Positions 26,284 through 55,644 of a stretch of DNA of 55,644 bases are shown here, piece by piece. Made by a program: the position numbers and the translations under genes. Under the pieces are notes generated by a model. It searched no databases and was not told where the DNA came from. It saw nothing but the letters and a program-made list of their open reading frames with translations. The stretch is from Candidatus Omnitrophota bacterium (GTDB taxonomy: Bacteria > Omnitrophota > Omnitrophia > JAHJGZ01), in the NCBI GenBank assembly GCA_018823795.1, contig JAHJGZ010000134.1, positions 1 through 55,644 on the forward strand, in the 5' to 3' direction. The stretch's first letter is position 1. Each line of letters starts with the position of its first letter.

Positions 26284-26295
26284 CGCTCGTAACGT

Positions 26296-28484: not shown

Positions 28485-29272
28485 TGCGTATTGCTATTGA
28501 ACGAGCCATTATTTTATTGCGCGAATGGAAGATCATAAAAAATCTGACACTGCGCAATATCAAAGTAAAGTATAAAAATACCGTCTTGGGTTTTTTCTGG
28601 GCATTATTACAACCACTGTGTACGATCGTTATTTTTTGTTTTGTTTTTTCGTATGTACTTGAAACAGACACTGAAAACTTTCCTTTGTTTCTTTGTGTGG
28701 GAATATTGCCCTGGATGTTTTTTGCCAATTCATTAGGTGAGGCAACAGCGTCGGTGATTAGTAATAGCAACCTGGTGCTGAAAATTAATTTCCCTTTAGC
28801 CGTGCTGCCACTATCGTATTGTTTAAGCAATCTCATAGATTTTCTCTTTGCGCTTATTATTTTGCTTCCTATTCTGTATGTGTTTGGCACCCCCATCCCG
28901 TTAGTAATACTTCTTCATTTATTTCCGATCATTGTATGTCATTTGTTATTTATCATGGGGTTATCCCTTATGTTAAGTGTGGCACATGTCTTTTACAAAG
29001 ATATTGGCCATTTACTTACCGTTGTGCTTATGTTTTGGTTTTATTTAACACCTATTTTGTATCCACTGACACAAGTTCCTCAAGAAGTGCTGGCTTTCTA
29101 TTATCTTAATCCGACAATTTATTTTATTGAAGGATATCGAGGGGTGTTATTCGATAGTGCGGCGCCTCAGTTGTTGTTGTATGGAAAGATGCTGGGTGTT
29201 GGACTTGTGTTTTTGCTGACCGGATGGTTGGTTTTCATTAATAAAGAGCGAGACATGGTAAAGGAATTGTGA
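28484..29272 (+). CDS. ABC-2 type polysaccharide export permease (Wzm-like)
   Basis: LRNIKVKYKNTVLGFFWALLQPL, multi-TM, LSVAHVFYKDIGHLLTVVLMFWFYLTPILYPL. Confidence 0.92.
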   Translation: MRIAIERAIILLREWKIIKNLTLRNIKVKYKNTVLGFFWALLQPLCTIVIFCFVFSYVLETDTENFPLFLCVGILPWMFFANSLGEATASVISNSNLVLKINFPLAVLPLSYCLSNLIDFLFALIILLPILYVFGTPIPLVILLHLFPIIVCHLLFIMGLSLMLSVAHVFYKDIGHLLTVVLMFWFYLTPILYPLTQVPQEVLAFYYLNPTIYFIEGYRGVLFDSAAPQLLLYGKMLGVGLVFLLTGWLVFINKERDMVKEL

Positions 29273-37795: not shown

Positions 37796-39058
37796 ATGAA
37801 AATTTTGCTTGTACATCCACATGATATTTTTGATCACCATGAGCCGTGGACTATACGCATAGAGAATATTGCTCGCGAATTTGTTCGTATGGGGCATACG
37901 GTGAAGTTAATACACTTTCTTCAGGAAACATCGATAGAAAAACATACGCGTCATCCCTATGGTTTTGAAGTCATTTCACTCAGGCGGCGGGGAGAATGGA
38001 AACGTTTTATGAAAAACTTCCGAGAAATTCTTACCGAAATCGAGTGGGCAGATATCGTACATTTCCAAAAATGTTTTCATTATGTCAGCCTTCCGGTTCT
38101 TTTCGGATGTTATAAATTCCGAAAACCGGTGCATTATGATTGGGATGATTTAGAAGAAGCAATTTATGAGACTTCTGCGCATCCTCCGAGCAGGTATATA
38201 CATTTTTTTCTTAATACTTTTGAGCGTATACTTCCCACGATGGTAGATACGGTGTCTGTTGCGAGTGCGGAATTGAGAAGGAAATGTGTATCGTTGGGAA
38301 TTCCTTCCCAGCGAATTTTTAATACCCCTGTTGGTGCTGATCTAGGTACGTTTAATGGATCTGTTTCCGGTGAACGTATCAAAAAAAGATTTAATGCCGG
38401 TGGAAAGCTGGTTGTCTATATTGGGCAACTGAACGGAGCTCAGTATACACACTTATTTGTCAAAGCAGTAAGTAAGATACGGGAGAAAAATCCTCATACC
38501 CGCTATCTTATTATTGGTTCAGGGAGTAAGAGTAGAGACCTCCAGGAATTGGCAAAATGTTTGAAGGTCGATGATGCGATTATGTTTCTTGGTGCTCTTC
38601 GTCATGAAATGGTGCCACAGTATTTAGCTGCGGCAGATATTGCAGTAGCATGCTTTGAGGATAATGAAATAACGCGTTGTAAAAGTCCTCTCAAGGTAGT
38701 TGAATATTTATCGGCAGGAAAGGCGATTGTGGCAAGCGCTGTTGGTGAAGTGAAGACGATGTTAGAAGGATGCGGCATACTAGTAAAACCGGGAAGTTCT
38801 GATGCACTCGCGGAAGGGGTTCAACGATTACTTAACGATGATACGTTAATAGAAACAATGGGGTTATTAGCAAGACAAAAAGCTGAGGAAAAGTATAATT
38901 GGCCTCGAGTTGCAAAAGAATTGATCAATGCCTATGCCGTAGCTTTAGGGAAAAAGAAATCGATTGCATTAGAAATGAACGGGTATGCAAAAAAAATAGT
39001 ATTTAAAGAAGAAAATAGCAGTGTTGAAGAAATCAAACGAGAAGAGATTATCGTATGA
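37796..39058 (+). CDS. Glycosyltransferase family 4
   Basis: HPHDIFDHHEPWTIRIENIAREFVRMGHTVKLIHF, VYIGQLNGAQYTHLFVKAV, CKSPLKVVEYLSAGKAIVAS. Confidence 0.93.
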   Translation: MKILLVHPHDIFDHHEPWTIRIENIAREFVRMGHTVKLIHFLQETSIEKHTRHPYGFEVISLRRRGEWKRFMKNFREILTEIEWADIVHFQKCFHYVSLPVLFGCYKFRKPVHYDWDDLEEAIYETSAHPPSRYIHFFLNTFERILPTMVDTVSVASAELRRKCVSLGIPSQRIFNTPVGADLGTFNGSVSGERIKKRFNAGGKLVVYIGQLNGAQYTHLFVKAVSKIREKNPHTRYLIIGSGSKSRDLQELAKCLKVDDAIMFLGALRHEMVPQYLAAADIAVACFEDNEITRCKSPLKVVEYLSAGKAIVASAVGEVKTMLEGCGILVKPGSSDALAEGVQRLLNDDTLIETMGLLARQKAEEKYNWPRVAKELINAYAVALGKKKSIALEMNGYAKKIVFKEENSSVEEIKREEIIV

Positions 39059-40284
39059 GCCGTTTCAGTAATAGATATAAAAAAATAAGGCGTACTGTTT
39101 TGGAGATTATTGGAGCATTTGACGGAGTTTTTGCTTATAAAGGACCTCGATGTGTTCAAATTGATTTAACCAATGCGTGTAACAATAACTGCATCGGGTG
39201 CTGGTGCAATTCGCCATTGCTCGATGATTATAAGCAGACCTCTGATGCCACATTGCCAACAGATATGGTCCTTTCATTGTTAAATGAACTTAAAAACATG
39301 GGAACAGAGGAGATCTATTTTGCTGGAGGTGGTTAACCTTTTATGCATCCTGAAGCAATGAGGATTATTTCATATGCAAAGAAAAAAGGATTTATCGTAT
39401 CGATAAACACTAATTTTACTCTTGTAACAGAAGATATTGCACGGTACTTGGTAGAGAACAAGGTAGATCATCTTATTGTAAGCTTATGGGCAGGAACACC
39501 CGATGTATACGCTCAAACACATCCCAATAAAACTGAGGAAACATTCTATGAAATTAAATCATGTTTACAGTTTCTTAATCGTTATAAAAGGAGAAGAGAG
39601 AATGTTCCCTGCATTAAGATTTATAACGTCGTTTTTAATATGAATTACCAGAATTTTCCGTCTATGATTGATTTTGTCGTTGCCACCGAGTCTGAAGCGG
39701 TTGAGTTTACCCTCATTGATACGATTCCGGGGAAGACGGATAAACTTTTGCTTTCTGAAAAGCAGGCCGAAGAATTGCTTTTTATGGCAAAAAAACTTAA
39801 AGAGCAATTTGATAATGAAAATAATACTATATGTCTAGAAAATTACGAAACATTTTTAAGAAGACTTTCAAGCTCGTGTCAGGGAAATGGGGAATATGAT
39901 CGGGATATTATGCAAACAATCCCGTGCTATGCCGGTTGGACATTTGCGCGTATTGTTGCAACCGGTGATGTAAATTCATGCCTTAAATCACACCGCATTC
40001 CTATTGGGAATTTGCATAAAGAAACATTTCGTTCACTGTGGAATAGTGCACGGCAGCAGGAATTTCGGAGGAAGACAAGACGCTTCGATATTCATGACCC
40101 GTATTTTCGATTGATTGGTAACGATACCAATGCGGCTGTTGGGTGTTTTCGCAGCTGCGATAATATCGGACATTCACTTTTGTTACATAATAAAATTACT
40201 CGTTTAAATAAACCGGTAAAAGCAATTTTAAAAACGATGGCGGCTGTCGGTCGAACACGGAATTCTTTGTCTACAAGGAACTAA
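39055..40284 (+). pseudogene. Radical SAM/SPASM-like protein split by in-frame TAA at the GGE motif
   Basis: ORF 39055-39336 (NACNNNCIGCW CX3CX2C ... YFAGGG*) and ORF 39343-40284 are in the same frame; TAA at 39334-39336 followed by PFMHPEAM; C-term CYAGWTFARIVATGDVNSC fits CX12GX4C. Confidence 0.85.
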
Positions 40285-40285
40285 T

Positions 40286-41338
40286 ATGACACCTGGTACG
40301 TTATTGAAAGAGAAACAGCATACGACACAGACGGTATCTCCGTCGTTCTGTTGTTTTGGTATTGTTGATGAATGCATGTTTCGATGTAAAATGTGTTTCA
40401 AGTGGCAAGAAGATCGTTTGGTGAAGAAGGGGGAGGTGGTACCGTTTGATGCGTGGAAAAGGGCCATTATTTCTTTAAAACGCATCGTACCAAAACCAAA
40501 TGAATTTGTAATAAATTTTGGGGGTGGGGAAGCGCTCTTGAGAGATGATATCCTTGATCTAGTACGCTGTGCATCAGAAGAAGGCTTTATTACTAATATT
40601 GCTTCAAACGGATGGCTCATTAATGATCATATGGCACAGCGTATTGCTCAATCCGGTTTACGAACGATTAATCTTTCATTAGATAGTTTACGGGAAAATG
40701 TTCATGATGAGATGCGCGGGCAAAAAGGGGCAGCAAAACAGGTTTTCTCTGCCATTGATTGTCTACGACGTTATTCGAGGAGGTTAGAAATTGGAATTTG
40801 TACGGTACTTTATGATTCAAATATGAACGATATCCTCCCGCTTATTAAGTGGGTGCAAAAGAATGAGAAGGTGAATTGGATTGTATTCATGGCCGCAATG
40901 CAGCCAAACAATACACCGGTGGAAGAGAAATGGTATGAGGAAAAATTCTCATCTTTATGGCCACAACGAAAAAGAAAGATAACACGGCTTATTAACTATA
41001 TTAAGTGGCTTAAATGGTGGGGATGGAAAATCCAAAATCCGTATCATCAGCTTGATGCTTTTAAAAGATATTTTTCTCATCCGGAACAGTTTGTGAAAAA
41101 TCGTCCGTGTAATATGGACCGGGCAGTTCATATTAGTGCTACGGGAGATATCTTTTTATGTTTCCGATGGCAGCGGATAGGAAATATTACAACCGATGCT
41201 ATCAAGGATGTATGGCATTCTCAAGCGGCAGAGAAGGTGAGAGGAGACATCCGGCAATGTCAGGATAATTGTCATTTTCTTCTCAATTGTTTTTTTGAAA
41301 AGGAAACCTTTCCTTTTTTACCAATGAATACGAACTGA
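40286..41338 (+). CDS. Radical SAM protein, LWP-family, SPASM-like C-terminus
   Basis: CMFRCKMC, GGGEALL, SSLWPQ, CNMDRAVHISATGDIFLC, CQDNCHFLLNC. Confidence 0.9.
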   Translation: MTPGTLLKEKQHTTQTVSPSFCCFGIVDECMFRCKMCFKWQEDRLVKKGEVVPFDAWKRAIISLKRIVPKPNEFVINFGGGEALLRDDILDLVRCASEEGFITNIASNGWLINDHMAQRIAQSGLRTINLSLDSLRENVHDEMRGQKGAAKQVFSAIDCLRRYSRRLEIGICTVLYDSNMNDILPLIKWVQKNEKVNWIVFMAAMQPNNTPVEEKWYEEKFSSLWPQRKRKITRLINYIKWLKWWGWKIQNPYHQLDAFKRYFSHPEQFVKNRPCNMDRAVHISATGDIFLCFRWQRIGNITTDAIKDVWHSQAAEKVRGDIRQCQDNCHFLLNCFFEKETFPFLPMNTN

Positions 41339-41375
41339 GAATAAAAGTATATTTTTTTATTGAGGGATACTAGGT

Positions 41376-42425
41376 ATGGATAGTTCAATAACGCAAAATA
41401 TGAAAAGTGAAAGCCAGAAGAAAAGCATCAGCAAACCAGGTTTCTGCTGTTTAGGGATTATTGATAACTGTATGTTGCGATGCAAAATGTGTGAGAAATG
41501 GAAGGATGATTTAGTAACGCAAGGAATGACTGAGGCTACGACGGATCAGTATAAGACTTTTCTTCAACAGCTACGCACCATTACCGATGAGGGGTTTGAG
41601 CTTGATATTGGTGGTGGCGAGGCTCTGATGCGACCTGACCTTTTGGAGCTTATTTCATATGCGCGTGATTTAGGGTTTAAAACGACGGTTGCATCAAACG
41701 GATGGCTCATTGATAAAGAAATGGCGCGGCGTATTGTTGAAAGTGGTCTTACGAGTATTATTTTGTCATTTGATAGTCTGAATTCAGAAGTTCATGATTC
41801 GATGCGTGGCGTACAAGGTGTTCATGCACGTGTTGTGCAAGCGATAGAATATCTCCGTCTCTTTTCGAAGGATATTCATATCGGACTGTGTACGATTATC
41901 ATGGAAAAAACCTTAGACGGGATTATTGAACTTGTCGAATGGTCAAATAGCAGGCGAGACAAAATTAATTCAATTCTTTTTATGGCTGTTATGCAACCAA
42001 ATAATACGGTTAAACAAGATAAATGGTTTGACCAGGACTTTAATACTATCTGGCCACAGGATACCAAGAAAGTTGTCGCTTGTATCGATGAATTAATTCG
42101 CCGGCGTAATGAGGGACAGTGGATCGCAAATTCGGTTGAACAACTTAAAGCATTCAGATTGTATTTTCAACAGCCAAATAAATTTGTTAAGAAGACAGCG
42201 TGCAATATGGATCGTGGGCTTCATATAAGTGCTGTTGGCGATATTTTTCTTTGTTTTAAGTGGGACAATCTTGGCAACATAAAAAATGGTGCGGACATAA
42301 GCCAGGTTTGGTATTCAAAAGAAGCTGAAACGGTGCGAGAAAATATTCGTCAATGCAAAGATAATTGTCATTTTCTTCTCAATTGTTTTTTTGAGGGAGA
42401 TTATCCGTTTAAATGTGATGTGTAA
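41376..42425 (+). CDS. Radical SAM protein, LWP-family, SPASM-like C-terminus
   Basis: CMLRCKMC, GGGEALM, NTIWPQD, CNMDRGLHISAVGDIFLC, CKDNCHFLLNC. Confidence 0.9.
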   Translation: MDSSITQNMKSESQKKSISKPGFCCLGIIDNCMLRCKMCEKWKDDLVTQGMTEATTDQYKTFLQQLRTITDEGFELDIGGGEALMRPDLLELISYARDLGFKTTVASNGWLIDKEMARRIVESGLTSIILSFDSLNSEVHDSMRGVQGVHARVVQAIEYLRLFSKDIHIGLCTIIMEKTLDGIIELVEWSNSRRDKINSILFMAVMQPNNTVKQDKWFDQDFNTIWPQDTKKVVACIDELIRRRNEGQWIANSVEQLKAFRLYFQQPNKFVKKTACNMDRGLHISAVGDIFLCFKWDNLGNIKNGADISQVWYSKEAETVRENIRQCKDNCHFLLNCFFEGDYPFKCDV

Positions 42426-42449
42426 TTAATTTTTTAAAAGGTATTTGTT

Positions 42450-43487
42450 ATGGAACAAAGTGGACCACGCATTGATACGGTAAAGAAGCAGTCGATTGAA
42501 AAACCTGCATTCTGTTGTATTGCAGCGACCGACTATTGTATGTTGCGATGTAAGATGTGTAATAAATGGGATGAACCGCTTCCAAAGGCTGATGAAGTGC
42601 CGACACTCGATGAATGGAAACGCTTTATTACACAATTTCGGGATTTAGTTGATGAAGGTTTTGAACTTGATTTTGGCGGCGGAGAAGCTCTTTCTATGCC
42701 GGGGATTCTTGATCTTGTGGCCCATGCGAAAAAGCAAGGGTTCCGGACAACCATTGCATCAAATGGATACTTAATAAATAAAGAAATGGCTAAGTGGATA
42801 GGATCATCAGGCCTTGATGCAGTCAGTTTGTCATTAGACAGCGCTCGCCCTGCATTACACGACCGCATGAGAGGAACAGAAGGTGTCTATCAACGTGTTA
42901 TGGATGCACTTAATAATTTGACCCGTTATGCGCCACATACTCAAAAAGGATTATGCTGCGTTATTATGAACGAAAACATTGATGAACCCCTGCGTCTGGT
43001 GAGCCTGGCAGAGGAGAATAAAAACGTTAACTGGCTTTATTTTATGGCGGTTGTCCAACCGAATTACAGTGGGCCCCTCAATGATCAGTGGTTGGATGAA
43101 TTTCAATGTCTATGGCCGCAGAATATTGACAAGACAATGCATGTGCTTGATGAGCTGATAAAACTGAAACAACACGGCTCAAAGATTAGTAACAGGGTTG
43201 AACATTTACGTGCCTATAAAGCATATTTTAATAATCCTGCACAGTTTGTAAATAAAGCTCAGTGTATTGTTGGCGGCAGAGCACTCAGTGTGAATAGTTA
43301 TGGATTTATTCAAATGTGTCTTTTTAAGGATTTTATCGGAAATATACGTGAACATGACATTAGAGAGCTTTGGTATTCGCAGGATGCCGATCTTATGAGA
43401 GAAAAAGTAAAACAATGTACGTCGAATTGTCATTTGTTGCTTAATTGTTGTTACATTGAAGATGATGAAGAGCTGTATAAAGAGTAA
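42450..43487 (+). CDS. Radical SAM protein, LWP-family, SPASM-like C-terminus
   Basis: CMLRCKMC, GGGEALS, QCLWPQN, CIVGGRALSVNSYGFIQMC, CTSNCHLLLNC. Confidence 0.9.
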   Translation: MEQSGPRIDTVKKQSIEKPAFCCIAATDYCMLRCKMCNKWDEPLPKADEVPTLDEWKRFITQFRDLVDEGFELDFGGGEALSMPGILDLVAHAKKQGFRTTIASNGYLINKEMAKWIGSSGLDAVSLSLDSARPALHDRMRGTEGVYQRVMDALNNLTRYAPHTQKGLCCVIMNENIDEPLRLVSLAEENKNVNWLYFMAVVQPNYSGPLNDQWLDEFQCLWPQNIDKTMHVLDELIKLKQHGSKISNRVEHLRAYKAYFNNPAQFVNKAQCIVGGRALSVNSYGFIQMCLFKDFIGNIREHDIRELWYSQDADLMREKVKQCTSNCHLLLNCCYIEDDEELYKE

Positions 43488-43496
43488 TGTTTATTT

Positions 43497-44513
43497 ATGA
43501 ATCAAGAAACATATCATAATACAAAGCCACGTTATTGCTGTTGGGTACTTAATTACCGCTGCATGTTTCAATGTCGCATGTGCTACATTTGGAAAACAGC
43601 GCAAGACAAATGTGAAACAACGCTTGAGGAGAAGAAGCGTTTTGTCGACTCACTGGTTGGATTTGTTAACACTGATTTTGAATTTCATCTTTCTGGCGGC
43701 GAACCGTTGGTAACAGAAGGGATTTACGATATTATACGCCATATTTATCAGTATGGCTTTAAGATAAACCTTGTTACGAATGGATGGCTCGTTGATGAGC
43801 GTGTTGTTGAAAATCTTAGTAGTGCAGGACTGTCGTCTCTTACTTTTTCCGTAGATGGCATACAGGCTGCTACCCATGACTTCCTCAGGGGAAAAGCCGG
43901 ATCGTATGAACGAATAATGAAAGCATTATCTATTACAAAAAAGATACGCGGTGATATGAAAATATCAGTTTTATCTTTAATTACCGGGCATAACGTGGAT
44001 GAAATTTTGCCACTTGTTGATTGGGTGCAAGCTCGTGCTGAGTTAGATATGATCAGCTTTCAGGCTATCACCCAGCCATTTTCTAAAGCACGTGATGATT
44101 ATTGGTTTGAAAAAGAAGAAGATAGATTTTTATGGCCGCACGATAGTGCAAAGGTTTCACGTATTATGGATGAATTGCATGCTAGAAAAAAGAACGGACA
44201 GAAGATTGGGAACCATCCGAATCATTTTATCCACTTCAAACGTTACTTTGAAAATCCTAACCGGTTCTTGAAAACAATAAAATGTAATCTTGGCGATTAC
44301 GAGTTTCACGTTGATCCGTATGGCAAAGTCTTTTTTTGTTGCCTTACTCAGCCAATTGGTAATATCACGACTGATTCACTGCCGAATCTATGGGGATCGC
44401 CTCAAACACGAACCATACGAGATGACGTCTATCACTGTAAACAAAATTGTCACATTATGATTAATTGTTTTTTTGAGAATGAACTCATATTGCAGGATGA
44501 GGGAAAACAATGA
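43497..44513 (+). CDS. Radical SAM protein, LWP-family, SPASM-like C-terminus
   Basis: CMFQCRMC, SGGEPLV, RFLWPHD, CNLGDYEFHVDPYGKVFFC, CKQNCHIMINC. Confidence 0.9.
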   Translation: MNQETYHNTKPRYCCWVLNYRCMFQCRMCYIWKTAQDKCETTLEEKKRFVDSLVGFVNTDFEFHLSGGEPLVTEGIYDIIRHIYQYGFKINLVTNGWLVDERVVENLSSAGLSSLTFSVDGIQAATHDFLRGKAGSYERIMKALSITKKIRGDMKISVLSLITGHNVDEILPLVDWVQARAELDMISFQAITQPFSKARDDYWFEKEEDRFLWPHDSAKVSRIMDELHARKKNGQKIGNHPNHFIHFKRYFENPNRFLKTIKCNLGDYEFHVDPYGKVFFCCLTQPIGNITTDSLPNLWGSPQTRTIRDDVYHCKQNCHIMINCFFENELILQDEGKQ

Positions 44514-45583
44514 GATTGTTAACGAAGTTTTTTAAAAAAGAAAAAGCGCCGATTCTTCACAAAGAAGGCAAGAAAATACCGTCCTTTTGCCTTCTGGTCG
44601 TCAATAAACAATGTAATTTTCACTGTCGCATGTGTAATATGTGGAAACATACAGAAGATCCGAGCTCGTTAACGCTCGATGAAATGAAACAATTTGTTAG
44701 CGATTTGCGCTCGTTTGTTGATGAATCGATTTTTATTCATCTTATTGGTGGAGAAACGCTTTTATGGCCACACACGGTAGAACTGGCAAAGTTTATAACC
44801 GATACTGGTTTTAAAACGTCAATTACCACCAACGGCTATCTGATTGATGAACGAATGGCAGAACAACTGGTCAATTCTGGTATGAGCGGAATTTTTATTT
44901 CACTGGATAGTTTGGATGAGGTAAAGCATGACTTCATTCGAGGGATGAAGGGAAGTTATGCTCGGGTTATGAAGGCTATTGATAATCTGTCCACCTATCG
45001 TGCACGTTACTACACCGACACGAGTATTGGTCTTACCTTTACGCTCATGCAGCATAATATCGATGAGGCACTCGACTTTACTGATTGGGTGCAAGAAAAT
45101 AAAAAAATTGATTCACTCTTTTTTAATGCAGTGCTTCAACCGTTTGATAGCGGTGAAGAGAGTAAAAATTGGTGGCAGCGGGAAAAATATAAAGAAATTT
45201 GGCCGCATGACCTTGATGCCGTACATCATGTAATAGATAAGTTAATTGAACGAAAAAGGAACAATGGCTCTAAAATATGTAATCCTCCCGAGCAATTACG
45301 TGTCCTTAAAGAATATTTTAAAGATCCTTATCGTTTTCGACACAATATGCGGATTAAGTGTACGAGAGGGGATTTGGCGCCGGAAGTCAATGCCTCTGGT
45401 GATATTTCGATGTGTTTTTATAAGGAACCGCTCGGCAATATTCGCAAAGACAATATACGTGATGTTTGGTTTAGTGATGCAATGGTGCGAGCACGAGAAC
45501 ATATTAACCAGTGTGATATGGAGTGTGATCTAGCGGCGAATTGTTTTTACAAGATAGAAAACATTACGGACTATGTGAAATGA
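44510..45583 (+). CDS. Radical SAM protein, LWP-family, SPASM-like C-terminus
   Basis: CNFHCRMC, IGGETLL, KEIWPHD, CTRGDLAPEVNASGDISMC, CDMECDLAANC; ATGA overlap with previous gene. Confidence 0.9.
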   Translation: MRLLTKFFKKEKAPILHKEGKKIPSFCLLVVNKQCNFHCRMCNMWKHTEDPSSLTLDEMKQFVSDLRSFVDESIFIHLIGGETLLWPHTVELAKFITDTGFKTSITTNGYLIDERMAEQLVNSGMSGIFISLDSLDEVKHDFIRGMKGSYARVMKAIDNLSTYRARYYTDTSIGLTFTLMQHNIDEALDFTDWVQENKKIDSLFFNAVLQPFDSGEESKNWWQREKYKEIWPHDLDAVHHVIDKLIERKRNNGSKICNPPEQLRVLKEYFKDPYRFRHNMRIKCTRGDLAPEVNASGDISMCFYKEPLGNIRKDNIRDVWFSDAMVRAREHINQCDMECDLAANCFYKIENITDYVK

Positions 45584-46581
45584 TAACGGATGCAAAAAAT
45601 ATAAAAACGCTTCAAGCACCCAAAACGTGTTTGTTGACGGTTTCAAACACCTGTCATCTTAAGTGTCATATGTGCGACTTGTGGAAAAAAGATACGCGGG
45701 ATGAAGAGATGTCGATTGATGATGCTAAACGATTCATTGCTGCGTTGCAGGAATTTGGAGGTGGCCCCATAGAACTACATCTTATCGGTGGGGAGACGTT
45801 TGTCAAAGAAGGAATATTTGATCTTATTACGTTGGCACGAAAGAACGGCGCACGAGTTGTTGTGACGACGAGCGCCTACTCTATTACACGAGAAGTGGCA
45901 AAAAAAATAGTGCAATCTGGTTTGAACATGATCAATTTTTCTCTTGAAAGTCTCAACGCTGACACCCATGACTGCTTACGAGGTGTTCTCGGTGTTCATG
46001 AAAAGGTTATAAATGCTATTCAGTATGTTGCAGAAGAATCAACATCCATAGAAATGGCAATTAATACTATTATTACGAAGCAAAACATTCATGATTTGAT
46101 TCCTTTAGTCGAATGGGTGAATAGTCATGAGCGACTTTCTCAGATTTATTTTATGGCAGTAATGCGGCCATTTGGTTCTGATTTAGATGTAGATTGGTAT
46201 GATACCGAACGAGCAACCGCATTATGGCCTGACGATTCGATAACTATTAACAACGTACTAGACCGTTTGATAGAGATGAAACAAGACGGTGCCAAAATAG
46301 GAAACTCGGCAGGACAGCTACGAACATTTAAATCGTATTTTGAAAATCCGACAAACGTTATTAAACAACAAGGATGTAGACTTGGTGATGATGCCCTGAA
46401 TATTAATGCCATTGGTGATGCGTATCTTTGTTTTTTTATGGAAAAGTTAGGCAATATTCAAAAGCAATCTCCATGTGAAATGTGGTTTTCAGAAAAAGCG
46501 CATCAAATCCGTAAGAACATGAGACAGTGTAATCGAAATTGTGAATTAATCATAAACTGCTATTACAAAGATGAACAATAA
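45580..46581 (+). CDS. Radical SAM protein, LWP-family, SPASM-like C-terminus
   Basis: ORF track starts at 45541 but the ATG at 45580 (ATGA overlap with the previous stop) is the likelier start; CHLKCHMC, IGGETFV, TALWPDD, CRLGDDALNINAIGDAYLC, CNRNCELIINC. Confidence 0.88.
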   Translation: MITDAKNIKTLQAPKTCLLTVSNTCHLKCHMCDLWKKDTRDEEMSIDDAKRFIAALQEFGGGPIELHLIGGETFVKEGIFDLITLARKNGARVVVTTSAYSITREVAKKIVQSGLNMINFSLESLNADTHDCLRGVLGVHEKVINAIQYVAEESTSIEMAINTIITKQNIHDLIPLVEWVNSHERLSQIYFMAVMRPFGSDLDVDWYDTERATALWPDDSITINNVLDRLIEMKQDGAKIGNSAGQLRTFKSYFENPTNVIKQQGCRLGDDALNINAIGDAYLCFFMEKLGNIQKQSPCEMWFSEKAHQIRKNMRQCNRNCELIINCYYKDEQ

Positions 46582-46635
46582 GGAAAAGGGGCTATCAAAA
46601 TATTGAAACATTGGTAGCGAAGCGCGGCTGAGCAT

Positions 46636-47739
46636 ATGATTCGTTTTTTAAAAAAATATTGGATTATTTTATTATTGTTTATATTTATTTTAGGTGAATT
46701 TGCTATTCGCTATTCCCCTTTAAAATATTATCCTAATTGGAACTTTAGGATACGTATGTACCAATGTATTCGGTGGAATATAGAAAGGCACACAAATTTA
46801 TTTCAAAACCACACATATAACACAAGCGAAATCTTTTTCAATCCCAAAAACGAATATAAGATTAAACATATTGTTCGTAAACCTAGTGATACTGTTCGAA
46901 TTATATGTTTAGGGACCTCGTCTACTCAAGGGTGGCCCAACGCTATCTCGTATCCGCAGATATTAGAGGAGTTGTTAAAAAAAAATCTAAAACAAAAGAA
47001 TCTGAAAAATTCCAAAACGTACGAGGTTATTAATGCGGGAGTGGGAGGGTATAATTCTTTTAAAGTGTTAATTTATTTTAAAGATATTCTGCTCAAATTT
47101 AATCCTGACATAGTAACTCTTTATTTAGGTAGCAATGATAGCAACTATCCGTCTTGTAATAACTTAACGGATAAAGACGTCTATGAGTATATTAAAACAT
47201 CGGTCAATAAGTATCCATCAGTAAATTCTAATTACAACTTAACGACTTTCTTGTCTCTGTCACCTTTTGTTGCAAACGATGTAACATATAAAATTCTTAA
47301 GCAGCTTTATAAAAGCCGACTTTTTTTTGCTGTGAGCAATGGTGTCGGATACCTGAAAAACAAAATAAAGAATAAAAACGTGATGGAGGTTCCTCCCGAT
47401 CTATTTAAAGAAGTATTAACGGAATTTGTTACTCTAGCAAAAAACAATAATTTTACTCTCGTTATTATTCCGGAAGCACATAGTCTTTCCGAGCCTGAAA
47501 TTTTGCAGCAAATTAGTATCATGGAAGAGATAGCTTCTCGATATAATATACGTCTGATTGATGTACAGAGTGTGCTGCGTAGAAGTCGTGATAAGAAGGT
47601 ATTTCATGATTATGTGCATCCTACAGTGTTGGGGCATAAAATAATCGCACAAGAGATATATGAATCATTGGTAGCTACATATCCAGTGCTTTTTTCTGAA
47701 CTACCCAAAATATCAAATCGCAACGATAACAAAGTATAA
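46636..47739 (+). CDS. Membrane-anchored SGNH/GDSL-like hydrolase
   Basis: N-term TM; CLGTSSTQGWPNAISYPQIL (Ser), YLGSNDSNYPS (Asn), FHDYVHPTVLGHKIIA (Asp/His). Confidence 0.85.
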   Translation: MIRFLKKYWIILLLFIFILGEFAIRYSPLKYYPNWNFRIRMYQCIRWNIERHTNLFQNHTYNTSEIFFNPKNEYKIKHIVRKPSDTVRIICLGTSSTQGWPNAISYPQILEELLKKNLKQKNLKNSKTYEVINAGVGGYNSFKVLIYFKDILLKFNPDIVTLYLGSNDSNYPSCNNLTDKDVYEYIKTSVNKYPSVNSNYNLTTFLSLSPFVANDVTYKILKQLYKSRLFFAVSNGVGYLKNKIKNKNVMEVPPDLFKEVLTEFVTLAKNNNFTLVIIPEAHSLSEPEILQQISIMEEIASRYNIRLIDVQSVLRRSRDKKVFHDYVHPTVLGHKIIAQEIYESLVATYPVLFSELPKISNRNDNKV

Positions 47740-47743
47740 AAAA

Positions 47744-48766
47744 ATGAAAAATATTTTCAGCGAGCTTGAAAGTGAAAAGAAAATATCGGGGGAAAAAAGC
47801 TATCCAACGTCATGCTCATTGGTAGTCCTTAATCGTTGTCTTTTACAATGCAAGATGTGTCATATGTGGAAAGCTCCACGTGTTGACGATGAAGTGACCA
47901 TCGAAGAATTGAAACGTTTTGTTTCTACGGTTAAGGATATGTTAGTAGGAGATAAGGAGTTAATTATTAGCGGAGGCGAACCACTCTTAAAAGAAGGAAT
48001 TTTTGACTTAATTAGACATGCATCCGATAGAGGATTAAAGACTATTATGCCAACAAACGGTTATTTGATCACTGAGGAGGTAGCAAAGCGTTTACATGTA
48101 TCAGGACTGAAAGAAATTTTTATTTCACTTGATAGTAATAACCCGGCAACACACGACTTTTTGCGAGGGAAAGACGGCTGTTTTGAACGTGTTATGAAAG
48201 GCATTGAATATTTACATGCGTATTGCAGGGGGCTTCGTATTAATTTTTTAACAGTAATTTCAAATAAAAATTTACATGAAGTCATTACACTACTTCACGA
48301 GATAGAAAATGATAAACGAATTTCGGGTGTTTATTTTCAGGCCATTGCCACTCCTTTTTTTACCGGCTTAGGGGAAGATTGGTGTGAGAATGAAGAATTT
48401 GGCTGTCTGTGGCCGCATGAATATGAAAAGGTGGTAGATGTTATTGATGAAATCATTCATCTAAAACGCGAAAAAAATTATATGGTGCATAATCATCATC
48501 AACATCTAGAACTTTTTAAACGGTATTTTAAAAATCCACATTGCCGTGTTGAAAAACGGGGATGTTACCTTGGCGATTCTGTTATTAATGTTGATCACGT
48601 CGGAAACATTAACTTGTGTTGTTTTGATCAGCCCGTTGGCAACATCAGAACAAATGATATACAAAGGCTTTGGTTTTCAGACGATGTTAAGGGGCGGCAA
48701 GCGGTGATGCATCAGTGTGAGAGAAATTGTCATAATTTAGTAAACTGTTTTTTTAAGCCCCGTTAG
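47744..48766 (+). CDS. Radical SAM protein, LWP-family, SPASM-like C-terminus
   Basis: CLLQCKMC, SGGEPLL, GCLWPHE, CYLGDSVINVDHVGNINLC, CERNCHNLVNC; stop codon TAG lies within a mobile-element TIR. Confidence 0.9.
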   Translation: MKNIFSELESEKKISGEKSYPTSCSLVVLNRCLLQCKMCHMWKAPRVDDEVTIEELKRFVSTVKDMLVGDKELIISGGEPLLKEGIFDLIRHASDRGLKTIMPTNGYLITEEVAKRLHVSGLKEIFISLDSNNPATHDFLRGKDGCFERVMKGIEYLHAYCRGLRINFLTVISNKNLHEVITLLHEIENDKRISGVYFQAIATPFFTGLGEDWCENEEFGCLWPHEYEKVVDVIDEIIHLKREKNYMVHNHHQHLELFKRYFKNPHCRVEKRGCYLGDSVINVDHVGNINLCCFDQPVGNIRTNDIQRLWFSDDVKGRQAVMHQCERNCHNLVNCFFKPR

Positions 48767-48892
48767 AGATTATGTGAAAGTATAGATATTTATTATTTTT
48801 ATAGCCAGTTTTAAAAATAGATGAAGTGATGTCGCATACAAATTACGGAAACACTTCAAGATGAACAGAAGCGTTTCCTATCTCTAACGGGG
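48758..48892. mobile_element. 135-bp non-autonomous relative of the GIY-YIG TIR element
   Basis: TIRs CCCCGTTAGAGAT (48758-48770) / ATCTCTAACGGGG (48880-48892); GGAAACACTTC (48847-48857)/GAAGCGTTTCC (48868-48878) hairpin. Confidence 0.82.
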
Positions 48893-48915
48893 TAAAGATG
48901 GCAAGATAGAAACCT

Positions 48916-51117
48916 ATGAAAAGCAAAAACAACGAAATTACCTGGGCAGGACAAAAAGATGAAATGTCCTTTTGGCAGCGCATGCTTGATACTATGGGCA
49001 GCGTGTATGGTGAGGGTGTGAAAGCACCGTTTCGGAGTAAAAAACTTCGTTCATGCGACCTCATCATTACTGAGAAATGTAATTTGAGATGTACCAAATG
49101 TTTTTCATGGAAACACAATCAGCATAATGGATTGAGTATTCGACAATGTAAATCGATCATTGATTCACTCAGTAAAACCGGGGAACGTCCTTTTGAAATT
49201 AATCTGGGTGGGGGAGAACCACTTTTAATAGACGGCATTATTGATCTTATCAAGTATTGTAGAAAGAAAGGGCTTAATCCGGCACTTTCCACTAATGGAA
49301 CGTTGCTTACAAAAAATATGGCCAAGCAGTTAGCATTAAGCGGACTTGCCAGGTTAAGTATTTCATTGGATAGTTTACATCCAGACTCACATGATACGTT
49401 AAGTGGGGTCAAAGGATCGCATAAGAAAGTGATGGAAGGAATTCAGGCGATAACAGATTGTTGGAAGCGTGGTATGCTCAACATTCATACGGTGTTAACC
49501 GAAGTTAATCTGGACAGAATTATTGATCTTGTTGAATTTGTTAATCATCATAAGGTGTTAAGCGGCATTAATATCCAGGCACTGGCACAGCCATTTCATA
49601 CACCACTACAGGCGGATTGGTACAAAGATGAACAATTTGCTTTTTTGTGGCCGAATAATATAACAAAAACTCATGCTGTTTTGGACCGATTAATCGAGTG
49701 TAAAAACAAAAATTTTAAAATTATTAACCCGACACATCAATTTAAAGTCTATAAACTCTATTATCAATATCCTAAACGTTTTTCACGTAAATTCCGATGT
49801 AATTTAGGTGATTATAACGTGACGATCAATTCAAAGGGAATAGCACATCTGTGTCCTTTTAAAAAAGCATTATGCGATGTGACGAATAAAAAGTTAGAAA
49901 AACTTTGGTATTCATATCATGCTTCAAAACTTCGCTATGCTATGTACAATTGCCGCACGAGTTGCAATAACATACTCAATTGTTATTTTGAAGAAGAGAA
50001 CATAGATGCTTTTTTTATCGATACCGAGCAACAGAAACAAAATAGCAAAAGTTCCATTGTGGTTGTGGAGAATGACTTGAAAACGGGAGAAAAATCAGCT
50101 GTTCGGTTTTGTAATCTTTTGATAACACCGTGTTGTAATCTTGACTGTAAAATGTGTTACATCGGACGTAGCAGCAAAGAGAAGAAAAAACATTTTCACG
50201 CTCATGGTTTATCGATAAAGGAATGGCGGTGGATTATTCATTCACTACATCTCTTAGGCAATAAGAACATGCGTGTTTATTTCAGTGGCGGAGAGCCTCT
50301 TTTGTGGAAGGGCATCTTTAATCTAATTGCATTTGCTTATCGTAAAGGACTTTTTACCATGATTGGAACGAGTGGTTCCTCTCTGCATTATTACACGTTG
50401 CAAAGGATCCTTGCTTCCGGTCTTAATTTTCTCGAACTTTCTCTTGATAGTCATGATGCCGCAATACATGATTACCTAAGAGGGAAGAAGGGAATCCATA
50501 AGCGACTGATGAACGCTGCCACATGGCTCCATATGAAGAAGAAAGACCTTGAGATCGGCATTAGCTGTGTTATTTCTAAAGTGAATCTGGCCGGGCTACT
50601 GTCATTTGTTGATACAATTGAGCGTGATGATCGTTTCTCAAGTATCTATTTTCAAGCGTTAGTTCAACCATATGACAGCCCACCACAAAAAGAATGGTAT
50701 CGATTAAAAGAGTTCTCATTTTTATGGCCAGATGATAAGGAAGCGCTTAATTATGTATTTGACGAATTGATCGTACGGAAGCAGAAAGGAAATTCTAAGA
50801 TAGGTAATTCACCTGAGCAGCTTCGTTTGTATCAGTATTATTATAACAATCCTGAAGACATTAACCGTGTCAAAACATGTACTCTTGATGCTTCGGCTAT
50901 AACAATTAACTGGCTTGGCTATGTAAGCTATTGTGATTATTTAGGTCCCCTGGGAAATGTGAAGGATTTTCATCTTGAGCAGCTTTTAACCTCAACGATG
51001 TCAGATATTAGAAAACAAGAAATAAAGCAGTGTCAGATTTATTGTAATTCTGTTGGAAATATAATGATTCAACCTGAAAAGCGAGAAGAGGTGTCCTGTG
51101 CCTACAGAAATGCATAG
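48916..51117 (+). CDS. Double radical SAM protein (two LWP-family domains in one ORF)
   Basis: Domain 1 CNLRCTKC...GGGEPLL...AFLWPNN...CRTSCNNILNC; domain 2 CNLDCKMC...SGGEPLL...SFLWPDD...CQIYCNSVGN. Confidence 0.9.
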   Translation: MKSKNNEITWAGQKDEMSFWQRMLDTMGSVYGEGVKAPFRSKKLRSCDLIITEKCNLRCTKCFSWKHNQHNGLSIRQCKSIIDSLSKTGERPFEINLGGGEPLLIDGIIDLIKYCRKKGLNPALSTNGTLLTKNMAKQLALSGLARLSISLDSLHPDSHDTLSGVKGSHKKVMEGIQAITDCWKRGMLNIHTVLTEVNLDRIIDLVEFVNHHKVLSGINIQALAQPFHTPLQADWYKDEQFAFLWPNNITKTHAVLDRLIECKNKNFKIINPTHQFKVYKLYYQYPKRFSRKFRCNLGDYNVTINSKGIAHLCPFKKALCDVTNKKLEKLWYSYHASKLRYAMYNCRTSCNNILNCYFEEENIDAFFIDTEQQKQNSKSSIVVVENDLKTGEKSAVRFCNLLITPCCNLDCKMCYIGRSSKEKKKHFHAHGLSIKEWRWIIHSLHLLGNKNMRVYFSGGEPLLWKGIFNLIAFAYRKGLFTMIGTSGSSLHYYTLQRILASGLNFLELSLDSHDAAIHDYLRGKKGIHKRLMNAATWLHMKKKDLEIGISCVISKVNLAGLLSFVDTIERDDRFSSIYFQALVQPYDSPPQKEWYRLKEFSFLWPDDKEALNYVFDELIVRKQKGNSKIGNSPEQLRLYQYYYNNPEDINRVKTCTLDASAITINWLGYVSYCDYLGPLGNVKDFHLEQLLTSTMSDIRKQEIKQCQIYCNSVGNIMIQPEKREEVSCAYRNA

Positions 51118-52144
51118 AGATGTTTTTGTAGATGAACGTGATAAACATATTCGTAAAGATGTGATGAAACCACACTGTTGTGACTTTATTGTATTAGAAA
51201 ATTGTATGCTTAGTTGCAAAATGTGTCACATGTGGAAATGCAAAGAAAATTATAATCAGGTGCCCGCTCTTTATTATGAAAAATTTATTGAATCACTCTA
51301 TGAATATTTTGGCTCTGAGATGCAAATTCAGATGGTAGGAGGAGAGCCACTTCTTAAACCGGGGATCATTGATCTTATTACAACTGCATCGAAAAAAGGT
51401 TTTTTTACGACACTGACATCAAATGGCTATCTTATTGATAGAAAAATGGCAAGTGCACTGATCGATGCACGTATTTCTTCTATAGCGCTCTCTCTTGATA
51501 GTTTAGATAGTGCTATTCATGACTTTCTTCGTGGAAAGCAGGGGGTTCATAAACAAACGATGAAGGCATTGAAATATCTTACACAATACCGGTATCCGGA
51601 ACAGAGCGTTTGTATTGTGACGACCATAATGCAGCCTAATCTTGACGATCTTATTGCTCTGGCTGATTGGGCTGAAGGTCATTCAGGGATTGCGTGTATC
51701 AGTTTTCAAGTCCTGTCACAACCATTTTATACCAAAGAAGACGTGTCGTGGTATAAAAATCCAAAGTTTTCATTTCTGTGGCCACAACGCGAGAAAGAAG
51801 TTTTTTCTGTCATCGATGCATTGATTGAACGCAAACAAAAAAAGAAAAAAATAGGAAACTCTGTTAATCAATTAAATATATTTAAGAAATATTTTCAGAA
51901 TCCTGAACAATTTGTGAAAAAGGGCGGTTGTCATTTAGGATACAATTCATTGAGCGTAAATTCATCTGGCAATATCTATCTTTGCTTTGAACAACCACCG
52001 ATCGGCAACATTATGCGAGATCGCATAGAAGATGTATGGGAATCACCGATTGCACATGACGTACGCTCACGAATTAAAGCATGTAACCGAAACTGTAAAT
52101 TAATGATTAACTGTTTCAGCGAAGAAGGATTTTCAATTGAATGA
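51098..52144 (+). CDS. Radical SAM protein, LWP-family, SPASM-like C-terminus
   Basis: CMLSCKMC, VGGEPLL, SFLWPQR, CHLGYNSLSVNSSGNIYLC, CNRNCKLMINC. Confidence 0.9.
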   Translation: MPTEMHRDVFVDERDKHIRKDVMKPHCCDFIVLENCMLSCKMCHMWKCKENYNQVPALYYEKFIESLYEYFGSEMQIQMVGGEPLLKPGIIDLITTASKKGFFTTLTSNGYLIDRKMASALIDARISSIALSLDSLDSAIHDFLRGKQGVHKQTMKALKYLTQYRYPEQSVCIVTTIMQPNLDDLIALADWAEGHSGIACISFQVLSQPFYTKEDVSWYKNPKFSFLWPQREKEVFSVIDALIERKQKKKKIGNSVNQLNIFKKYFQNPEQFVKKGGCHLGYNSLSVNSSGNIYLCFEQPPIGNIMRDRIEDVWESPIAHDVRSRIKACNRNCKLMINCFSEEGFSIE

Positions 52145-53565
52145 GTAAGCCTAATTCAGTCTTATTAGTCCAGTCCCCTCCATGGGGTGTTTCAACCGTG
52201 CCATTAGGTGTAGCGTACCTTTCTACGTATTTACGCTCAAAAGGTATTTCAGTCGAGGTATTAGATCTTAATATTAATCTATATCGCAATGCCGCATTTG
52301 ATATACGGGAACGGTGGAGCACCAACGAATTTGAATATTGGGCATCTGGAGATATTCTTAAAGATACATGGTTCAATATTGAAACAATCGTTCAAGATAT
52401 TGTGAAACGGGATATACACGTCGTGGGTTTTTCAACCACCTTTGCTAGTATTCCGTTTCTTAATGAAATTATACAAATATTACGTGCGGCCAAGCCTGAT
52501 ATTACCATTATCGTGGGGGGGGGCGGCCCTTCGTATCGTGTACACCGTAATTTTTTTAGAAAAGATCTGGTAGATTATTTTATTATCGGTGAAGGGGAGG
52601 TTCTGTTATATGAACTTATTAAGCAACTATGGGCCGGCCATTCATCTTTTATCAATGCGACCTGTCATGAATGGAAAGATGAGCCTCGAGATCGGGCTTT
52701 ATGCCTTCAGGGCAAAAGAGCAACAAACCTCGATGAACTTCCATTTCCGACATTTGAAGAGTTTGATATTGAGAAATATATCGAAACAGATCTTTTGCCT
52801 ATTGTGATTTCTCGTGGATGTATTAATGCGTGCCACTTTTGCTGTGATTGGTTATTGAAAAGGCCGTATCGTGTGCGAAAACCCAACGTAATAGTAGACG
52901 AAATACAATGGTTAGTTTCCCGATATGGACGTCGACGGTTTGAATTTAGTGATCTTTTGGTTAACGGTGATTTGCAGAATTTTGAGACATTATGTGATTT
53001 ATTAATACGGAGAAAAATCAATATTGTATGGGGTGGACAAGCGACAGTAAGAAGTGAGATGACGCAGGAGCATTTTTTAAAAATGAAAGAGGCAGGATGT
53101 GGTGGCTTGACCTTTGGTTTTGAAAGTTTTTCTAATTCTCTTCTTAAGAAAATGAATAAGCATTTTACTGCTGCTGATGCAGCGGGTGTCATTCGGAGGG
53201 CAAAAAAAGCAGGAATGCTTGTTGAGGCAAATTTTGTTGTTGGATTTCCTGGTGAACAAGAAAGTGACATTGATGAAACGATTACATTTTTAAAAGAAAA
53301 TCGTGCTTTCATTGACCGTGTTAATAGTCTCAATATTTGTAGCATCGGACCTGGTATGAATATATGGGAAAGAGCGGAAGATTTTGGCATAAATAAGGAT
53401 ATTGTTAACGATTGGTATGCATGGCATACAGAAGATAAACAGAATACGATTGAAATACGAATAGATCGTCACAAAAGGCTTAAAACATTTATAGAAACTG
53501 AAGGATTTGGTCTTTCCTGGCAAAACATACGGAAAAATGAGCAAGAGATAAAGAGAGCGGTATGA
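52141..53565 (+). CDS. B12-binding domain radical SAM protein
   Basis: LLVQSPPWGVSTVPLGVAYLSTYLRSKGISVEVLDLN, SRGCINACHFCCDW (CX3CX2C). Confidence 0.9.
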   Translation: MSKPNSVLLVQSPPWGVSTVPLGVAYLSTYLRSKGISVEVLDLNINLYRNAAFDIRERWSTNEFEYWASGDILKDTWFNIETIVQDIVKRDIHVVGFSTTFASIPFLNEIIQILRAAKPDITIIVGGGGPSYRVHRNFFRKDLVDYFIIGEGEVLLYELIKQLWAGHSSFINATCHEWKDEPRDRALCLQGKRATNLDELPFPTFEEFDIEKYIETDLLPIVISRGCINACHFCCDWLLKRPYRVRKPNVIVDEIQWLVSRYGRRRFEFSDLLVNGDLQNFETLCDLLIRRKINIVWGGQATVRSEMTQEHFLKMKEAGCGGLTFGFESFSNSLLKKMNKHFTAADAAGVIRRAKKAGMLVEANFVVGFPGEQESDIDETITFLKENRAFIDRVNSLNICSIGPGMNIWERAEDFGINKDIVNDWYAWHTEDKQNTIEIRIDRHKRLKTFIETEGFGLSWQNIRKNEQEIKRAV

Positions 53566-54734
53566 TAACAAAACTCGATGAAAACACGCCGAAGATTGAT
53601 AAAACACAGCAGATAAACAAACCTAACTCCTGCGTTTTATTGCTTACATTAAGTTGTAACCTAAAATGTAAAGTGTGTCAGTTATGGTGTAACAAGGAAG
53701 ATCGCACTCATTTTCCTTCGCTTGATAAATGGAAAGCCTTTTTGGATTCTATAGAATATTTTATTAATAAGCCATTCACCCCGTTAGAGAATGCTGCTCA
53801 AGGGGAAAAGAATACAATTAAAAACAATGCCAATAGTAATGATACGGCAATATTAATAAAATCTGTTAAGGAGCGTCCTCTAACGGGGTTCACCGTCATT
53901 TTTGGCGGAGGTGAACCGTTACTTTTTAAGGATGAATTGCTCGTGCTTATTGCCTATGCACATAACAAAGGATTTCGTACTTCACTTGCAACAAGTGGTT
54001 ATCATATGACTGAAGAAGCAGTGAAAGAATTATGTGCTGCGGGACTTGATTATATCGCGTTTAGTGTCTATAGCCTTAATGGTCGAAAACAGGATTTCTT
54101 AAGAGGTGTACCAAGCAGTCTTAAAAAGGTGAAGGAAGCAATTGCGTTGTTTTCCCAGCATGGTTCGCATGTTGAAATTGCTATTGATACGGTTCTTATG
54201 GAACCAAACAGGAAGGATATTGTTCGTTTGACAAAGTGGGTTTTAAAACACAAAAATATTTCACGAATCATGTTTCAAGCTGTTATGCAACCATTCCACA
54301 CAAAGCCGTTAGGAGATTGGTATTCCGATAAGGAATATTCTTTTCTGTGGCCTCGTAATGTAAAAAAGATGATAAAGATCATTGATAATTTGAAAAAACT
54401 CAAACGGAACGAAACGAAAAACGGTCAAGGAAAAGTAACAAATTCTATTGCTCAATTTGAAATTTTTAAGCAGTATTTCGAAACTCCAAATCGATTCATC
54501 AAAAATAAACATTGTCCAACTTCTGGCAACGGACATTTTGGTATTGCTCCGGATGGAGCTATTACCTTGTGCCCGTATATGAAGGGTATCGGTAATGTAA
54601 AAGAATATTCTCTTGAGCATCTTTGGTATTCTCAGACAGCGTGCGAGAGAAGGGAAGAAATTTATTCCTGTAGCCGTAATTGTCACCATATTGTTAATTG
54701 TTGGTATGAAGAGGAAATGTTTACATCCATGTAG
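53562..54734 (+). CDS. Radical SAM protein, LWP-family, carrying an in-frame mobile-element insertion
   Basis: CNLKCKVC, GGGEPLL, SFLWPRN, CPTSGNGHFGIAPDGAITLC, CSRNCHHIVNC; 38-codon insertion just before the GGE region. Confidence 0.9.
   Translation: MITKLDENTPKIDKTQQINKPNSCVLLLTLSCNLKCKVCQLWCNKEDRTHFPSLDKWKAFLDSIEYFINKPFTPLENAAQGEKNTIKNNANSNDTAILIKSVKERPLTGFTVIFGGGEPLLFKDELLVLIAYAHNKGFRTSLATSGYHMTEEAVKELCAAGLDYIAFSVYSLNGRKQDFLRGVPSSLKKVKEAIALFSQHGSHVEIAIDTVLMEPNRKDIVRLTKWVLKHKNISRIMFQAVMQPFHTKPLGDWYSDKEYSFLWPRNVKKMIKIIDNLKKLKRNETKNGQGKVTNSIAQFEIFKQYFETPNRFIKNKHCPTSGNGHFGIAPDGAITLCPYMKGIGNVKEYSLEHLWYSQTACERREEIYSCSRNCHHIVNCWYEEEMFTSM
53779..53888. mobile_element. 110-bp TIR element inserted in frame within an rSAM CDS
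   Basis: CCCCGTTAGAGA (53779-53790) / CTCTAACGGGG (53878-53888), TTCA duplication at 53775-53778 and 53889-53892. Confidence 0.85.
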
Positions 54735-54858: not shown

Positions 54859-55644
54859 ATGGCTATACAAAAAAAGATATTGAAGCAAAAAGTAAGTTTA
54901 ATTTTATTTGGCATCATAATCTTTTTTATAATACTTGAAACAGGATTATGGGTAGGTAGGTTTGTATGTGTATCTGTTCAAGAACATCGGAACATAATTT
55001 CTATTAAGAAGAAAGGGGCTTATCGTATCCTGTGTTTAGGGGAGTCTACTACAGCTGTTAGGGGTAGTAATTCATACCCTGGCCAACTCGAGCAAATATT
55101 AAATCAGGCAAATATAGGAATAGAATTTAGTGTCATTAATAAAGGTATGATTGGAATAGGGACGGGAACTATAGTTAAACAGTTAGAAGATAATTTAAAT
55201 ATATATAATCCAGACATGGTTATTACAATGATGGGTATTAATGATGGGCGGGAAGATATTATGTCTTATGATGATAGTAACTATTGTACAGCCTTGAAAT
55301 TTGTTCGAAGGTTGAAAACGTATAAGCTATTAAGACTCATATGGTTACATGGGATAGCTAAAGCTGAAGCCGGAGATGAAGAATTGCAAGAGCTTGTTAT
55401 GAAAAGACATTTTGATGAAGTGAAGGTGTATAAAAGCCAGAAAAATTATGAAAAGATTGAGGAAATATTGAAGAAGATATTACAAATGGATTCAAAGAAG
55501 ATAGATGCATGGAGTCAATTAGGGTGGTGTTATCGAGAACAAAAGAGATATGAGGAGGCAGAAAAAACTCTTAAAAAGGCCCTAGTGATAAATCCGGATA
55601 GGGCTGATAGTTATATACAGTTAGGATGGTGTTATCATGAGCAG
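54859..55644 (+). CDS. SGNH-like hydrolase fused to TPR repeats (truncated by window end)
   Basis: Open frame to the window end, absent from ORF track: N-term TM, CLGESTTAVRGSNSYPGQLEQIL, TMMGINDGREDI, then WSQLGWCYREQKRYEEAEKTLKKALVINPDRADSYIQLGWCYHEQ. Confidence 0.82.
   Translation, partial: MAIQKKILKQKVSLILFGIIIFFIILETGLWVGRFVCVSVQEHRNIISIKKKGAYRILCLGESTTAVRGSNSYPGQLEQILNQANIGIEFSVINKGMIGIGTGTIVKQLEDNLNIYNPDMVITMMGINDGREDIMSYDDSNYCTALKFVRRLKTYKLLRLIWLHGIAKAEAGDEELQELVMKRHFDEVKVYKSQKNYEKIEEILKKILQMDSKKIDAWSQLGWCYREQKRYEEAEKTLKKALVINPDRADSYIQLGWCYHEQ

Follow-up and report, generated by a model that had tools for sequence, protein, structure and literature searches.

Ten co-directional ORFs between positions 40286 and 54734 of the window, the stretch of 55,644 nucleotides of Omnitrophota DNA analyzed here, encode 11 radical-SAM/SPASM domains of a single family, as originally predicted, with two of them in the ORF at 48916. 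With a probability of roughly 0.6, these genes belong to a horizontally mobile, colinear series of radical-SAM enzymes that tailor a surface glycan exported by an ABC transporter, each enzyme carrying out one fixed step. Here, we infer the glycan substrate, the action on the polymer, the single step per enzyme and every type of reaction. The array ORFs are densely packed, several overlapping by at least 4 bp, and an SGNH protein gene and a B12-radical-SAM gene are interleaved with them. The array positions are labeled A to K in the features of the region, as follows.

25447..28484, + strand: three glycosyltransferases (GT2, GT2, GT4-like)
28484..29272, + strand: ABC-2 permease, closest to the polysaccharide exporters Wzm/KpsM (PF01061; NF050109 70 bits against a cut-off of 380)
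29428..37659, + strand: Wzt-like ABC ATPase, 2743 aa (PF00005), with 10 full copies and one partial copy of a ~200-aa repeat
37796..39058, + strand: glycosyltransferase family 4 (PF13692/PF00534; family F7, in 7 genomes)
39055..40284, + strand: radical SAM/SPASM gene of another family, split, with TAA at 39334-39336
40286..41338, + strand: radical SAM/SPASM, position A (PF04055 and PF13186; grouping with other A genes only 89/73)
41376..42425, + strand: radical SAM/SPASM, position B (PF04055; B group 98* in the large tree; 62% identity to G163)
42450..43487, + strand: radical SAM/SPASM, position C, the most conserved (group 100/100; up to 72% identity to orthologues)
43497..44513, + strand: radical SAM/SPASM, position D (group 100/100; AF2 pLDDT 93.1; best PDB match BlsE)
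44510..45583, + strand: radical SAM/SPASM, position E (group 100/100)
45541..46581, + strand: radical SAM/SPASM, position F (group 100/99; start at TTG 45541 or ATG 45580)
46636..47739, + strand: SGNH/GDSL protein with an N-terminal hydrophobic segment, interleaved (PF13472; same family in 9 genomes)
47744..48766, + strand: radical SAM/SPASM, position G (group 100/100)
48916..51117, + strand: fused radical SAM/SPASM, positions H and I (two PF04055 stretches; H 100/93, I 98/92)
51098..52144, + strand: radical SAM/SPASM, position J (group 99/98)
52141..53565, + strand: B12-binding radical SAM enzyme (PF02310 and PF04055; family F1; best NCBIfam matches below cut-off)
53562..54734, + strand: radical SAM/SPASM, position K (group 100/99)
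54859..55644, + strand: SGNH and TPR gene, cut by the contig end at 55644

All 11 window domains show the features of the radical SAM superfamily, namely, CX3CX2C and a partial TIM barrel with GGE, as judged from PF04055 scores above cut-off and an AF2 model. They also share WP, the Tyr of a K-x-Y helix and a SPASM-type CX(n)GX4C...CX3CX5C arrangement in a Cys-rich C terminus, and 25 columns are invariant in the alignment of the 11. Two further motifs that had been listed as shared, [QRT]P[FYN] and W-x, hold only loosely, and the ORF that had been placed at 45580 does contain a domain, its frame being listed from the TTG at 45541. The radical-SAM cysteines are all kept, and so are nearly all SPASM cysteines: those at reference (ref) positions 263, 281, 314 and 318 are present in 11/11 window domains, and domain I is without the last one (ref 324). 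PF13186 scored above cut-off in 7 of the 10 window ORFs. In a wider set of 155 domains (27 genomes), 153 retain the three cysteines of the AdoMet cluster, and only one of the five SPASM cysteines remains in group L. Identity of the window domains to the first one (40286) is 28 to 46%. For the named NCBIfam radical-SAM families (GeoRSP, AhbD, NirJ, TIGR04053, BlsE and others), all best scores were far under the curated cut-off.

The split gene at 39055 and the B12-type gene at 52141 are as originally described. The in-frame TAA of the former (39055/39343) falls in the codon of the GGE Glu and may reflect either a genuine nonsense mutation or an error in the MAG; the counterpart is a single intact gene adjoining the array in five other genomes. 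The B12-radical-SAM gene is placed between J and K also in genomes G101 and G031.

Regarding the origin of the array, the original prediction of a tandem expansion at this locus did not survive phylogenetic analysis. In a tree of 155 domains, every window domain clusters with genes of other genomes, and in a tree of 50 rows each has its own orthologous group, with strong support for ten and 89/73 for A. The groups extend to up to seven other Omnitrophota genomes. A single window clade is rejected by the AU test (p=2.6e-6) and, given the orthologues of each domain in the arrays of other genomes, so is expansion within the locus. The result is neither of the two outcomes that had been envisaged, a within-locus clade or a mixture of unrelated families; there is one family, divided into orthologous groups that run across genomes. 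That the domains are long diverged, and not a very recent amplification, was borne out by identities of 44 to 73% within groups versus 30 to 49% between them. The genes at 40286 and 41376, which had looked closest, are 46% identical, and groups A and B are the closest of all (49%), with A, B and C being each other's closest groups. Apart from A/B/C, neighboring position and relatedness gave no signal (Mantel r=-0.10, p=0.24), which rejects duplication neighbor by neighbor.

Decaying duplicates were also rejected, as dN/dS is low and the frames are mostly intact. The ratio was 0.04 to 0.11 (Nei-Gojobori, pairs with unsaturated dS) in 8 of the 11 groups tested (A, B, C, D, E, J, K and L), indicating purifying selection where computable. 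Since dS between the window and its orthologues is saturated, we deduce purifying selection on the window copies from their intact frames and conserved motifs. Most of the internal stops reported by the genome search appear to fall at match ends, 5' of the start codon.

Gene order is strictly kept. On the contigs of other genomes, 257 of 257 ordered pairs match the window order, a value reached by 0 of 20,000 shuffles (best shuffle, 176), with groups assigned from the tree by eye and two ambiguous genes excluded. A second, smaller array type (family f46, four to five genes) is likewise colinear (42/42). The genomes compared are fragmented MAGs; in them, copy number varies to some extent, and neighboring positions are sometimes fused (H-I in the window and G157, L-M in G101). 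Contig C34 of the same genome starts with the complementary C-terminal half of the SGNH-TPR gene cut at the window's end, followed by positions L and M, and in G031 the SGNH-TPR gene likewise lies directly before L. Therefore, C34 probably continues the window array, which would then comprise 13 domains in all.

The family was found in 39 of 386 Omnitrophota genomes in a phylum search, in which per-genome copy counts are lower bounds. Among the mapped loci, 19 genomes have at least three members, with a maximum of 16 in G163 and 12 to 13 in G031 and G101. A contig scan with a single protein query matched two loci, both from Omnitrophota, and one query against viral contigs gave no match. Plasmid-borne relatives were considered and rejected, the best matches including only TIGR04053 proteins of ~25% identity. 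The array block moves horizontally, as expected for a surface-glycan locus: G079 and G101 are 97% identical in rpoB versus 66% in the array, G031 and G157 are 65% identical in rpoB versus 71% in the array, and the family is absent, at the threshold used, from the other genomes of G031's genus. The array is older than the divergence of these genomes' copies and was later passed between lineages as one unit. The identical order of the enzymes in other Omnitrophota suggests an ancient radical pathway of several steps that builds an unusual surface sugar polymer, not a recent gene amplification.

The surroundings of the array are of glycan type. Neighbors common to array loci are an ABC-2 permease, an ABC ATPase with C-terminal repeats, glycosyltransferases and a WecA-like PF00953 gene, which adjoins the exporter in other genomes; a flavin oxidoreductase, PMT_2 proteins, SGNH proteins, B12-radical-SAM genes and a carbamoyltransferase also occur. 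In the window, the permease adjoins the ATPase within a glycan locus, the arrangement of a Wzm/Wzt exporter, with the permease scoring below its family cut-off. Wzm/Wzt ABC-dependent O-antigen biosynthesis, e.g., that of Aquifex aeolicus (PMC9445017), similarly combines an ABC-2 permease, an ATPase with C-terminal modules, a WecA-like enzyme, glycosyltransferases and horizontal mobility. Unlike in those systems, tailoring here is dominated by 11 to 13 radical-SAM enzymes, and the C-terminal modules have a different, repeated mutarotase-like fold that tailoring enzymes also carry. Because ABC_tran is its only Pfam domain, the window ATPase has no recognizable classical Wzt carbohydrate-binding domain.

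The ~200-aa repeat is present in 10 full copies in the window ATPase, compared with 3 to 5 copies in most relatives. Elsewhere, it occurs in fusions with B12-radical-SAM proteins and with radical-SAM/SPASM proteins, the latter usually having two or three copies; none of the array enzymes themselves carries it, and repeat number (3 to 10) does not track the number of array enzymes. Sequence searches of the repeat in Pfam and PDB gave nothing convincing. Its predicted structure (pLDDT 95.6) matched mostly carbohydrate-active proteins of the galactose mutarotase-like fold (E 1.8e-6, TM 0.60), including the N-terminal domain of GH94, aldose 1-epimerases and OpgG/OpgD. The repeat differs from these proteins in its identity of <12%, its length (~200 aa versus ~290 to 300 aa for stand-alone epimerases) and the lack of a Pfam match. 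From this model, the repeat may bind the glycan. It was found in 72 of 386 genomes and in 19 of 19 array genomes, a co-occurrence that is suggestive only, because the repeat model was built mainly from array loci, making it partly circular, and the statistic ignores relatedness. In the genome of origin, all but two repeat matches lie within the window ATPase; the remaining two copies are at C187:3937-6803, and several radical-SAM domains are encoded on that contig too.

As for the chemistry, the closest solved structure to the position D model is BlsE (TM 0.70/0.73), a cytosylglucuronate decarboxylase (PDB 7vob; TIGR04466). Both are single-chain radical SAM enzymes with a C-terminal auxiliary-cluster domain, and BlsE acts on a sugar; however, identity is 21%, and TIGR04466 scores at most ~60 bits against a cut-off of 400. 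Three positions are invariant within groups and different between groups, namely, ref 20 (two residues before the first cluster Cys), ref 66 (directly before GGE) and ref 93, and a barrel-strand Cys at ref 159 occurs invariably in A to C and in no other group. At the sequence level, such group-specific residues fit different substrates or outcomes per position. Together with the strict gene order, they favor the one-enzyme-per-step part of the original prediction, with a fixed colinear series being more probable than combinatorial chemistry. NeoN catalyzes Cys-dependent radical-SAM epimerization on a glycoside (PMC10991966) and, with other aminoglycoside radical-SAM epimerases, gives a precedent for inverting a stereocenter on a finished glycoside with Cys as hydrogen donor. 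Those enzymes differ in acting singly on small antibiotics, not as an array. In Aquifex, Wzt is known to recognize a modified glycan end (PMC9445017). The likeness to BlsE, the group-specific residues, and the NeoN and Wzt precedents lead us to favor stepwise radical tailoring of a glycan exported by the ABC transporter.

In such a pathway, glycosyltransferases would build the glycan on a lipid carrier in the cytosol, with the WecA-like enzyme of other genomes as the starter. The 13 radical SAM/SPASM enzymes (A to K in the window, L and M on C34) would then alter defined sugars or positions in fixed, non-interchangeable steps, with hydrogen abstraction leading to epimerization, dehydrogenation, decarboxylation or deoxygenation. 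B12 enzymes may add methylation and SGNH proteins acylation. Finally, the Wzm/Wzt-type ABC transporter, through its ATPase with many mutarotase-fold modules, would recognize and export the tailored polymer. A stricter version, which we regard as tentative and somewhat doubtful, is an assembly line in which the 13 paralogous enzymes, in fixed gene order, each handle a single position or step on a lipid-linked glycan and are coupled to the exporter via the shared mutarotase-fold modules, and only fully tailored polymer leaves the cell. Overall, colinear orthologues, low dN/dS, glycan neighbors, and a repeat common to the exporter ATPase and radical-SAM proteins support a glycan; counting against it are array enzymes devoid of the repeat, structural matches to peptide enzymes, an ATPase without the classical Wzt domain, and a repeat number unrelated to enzyme number.

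The main rival is sugar chemistry at the precursor level, where each array enzyme would make one unusual activated monosaccharide (a nucleotide sugar) before polymer assembly. BlsE, as well as DesII and BtrN, which are also among the structural matches of the D model, act on small sugar or cyclitol substrates, and the absence of the repeat from array members agrees with this. Nevertheless, the repeat is fused to neighboring radical-SAM and B12-radical-SAM enzymes, which argues for polymer-level action for those at least, and we consider this rival unlikely.

Less likely still is a RiPP pathway, in which SPASM enzymes would modify successive residues of a ribosomal peptide exported by the ABC transporter. 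Peptide maturation is the best-known role of SPASM enzymes, and after BlsE many of the top structural matches are peptide modifying (SkfB, a sactipeptide enzyme, anSME and SuiB), with the same fold and cluster-binding layout as the array enzyme. Moreover, a conserved ORF of 47 to 49 aa immediately precedes position A in six genomes (G101, G079, G150, G163, G061 and G157), e.g., L045:567-710 in G101, with the pattern NWQKF...GGLFYA..RGFKYLAWRN.C. However, neither the window nor G031 has this ORF, and in G214 and G242 a related sequence is found within larger proteins, so it resembles an accessory segment. Unlike in the SkfB, SuiB and anSME systems, neither a conserved precursor peptide gene among the small ORFs nor a sulfatase was found in the window, whose gaps are at most 155 bp; none of its small ORFs recurs elsewhere among the matches listed. 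The NCBIfam peptide-maturase models also score far below cut-off, and the neighborhood is glycan machinery.

It appears very improbable that the enzymes carry out successive radical reactions on a lipid chain or polyprenyl carrier: radical-SAM lipid enzymes exist, and a flavin amine-oxidase-like gene (F3) and a polyprenyl-phosphate transferase-like gene (F4) lie near the exporter in ten genomes each, but lipid enzymes match no closer than others, and the exporter and the repeat point to sugars. Ordinary local duplication of a redundant family without stepwise logic, as the mutual closeness of A, B and C and the copy number changes might suggest, is hardly credible against the AU test, strict colinearity, purifying selection on separate groups and group-specific residues.

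A literature search found no description of such arrays, and no similar set of 13 orthologous radical-SAM enzymes with a conserved order is known to us. Should the array indeed act on glycans, a phylum that still lacks isolates would use radical chemistry as one of its main ways of diversifying polysaccharides, and 13 related enzymes of differing specificity would become available for learning what governs substrate choice and reaction outcome in SPASM enzymes. The shared repeat provides a starting point for identifying the substrate.

Within the 3.2-Mb genome of origin, which encodes 118 radical-SAM domains, a profile search gave 14 clear family members: the 11 of the window (430 to 477 bits), two on C34 (379 and 323 bits) and one on contig C19 (219 bits). 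Since the next score drops to 107 bits, the family is distinct from the ~100 other radical-SAM domains of the genome. More dense radical-SAM runs, of other families, were observed on contigs C5 (1 to 13 kb) and C194 (11 to 26 kb). Giant ORFs are known in Omnitrophota (PMC10066038), and radical-SAM matches were also seen within open frames of 13,298 aa (C59:44030-44623) and 7,924 aa (C72:17140-17556, a weak match).
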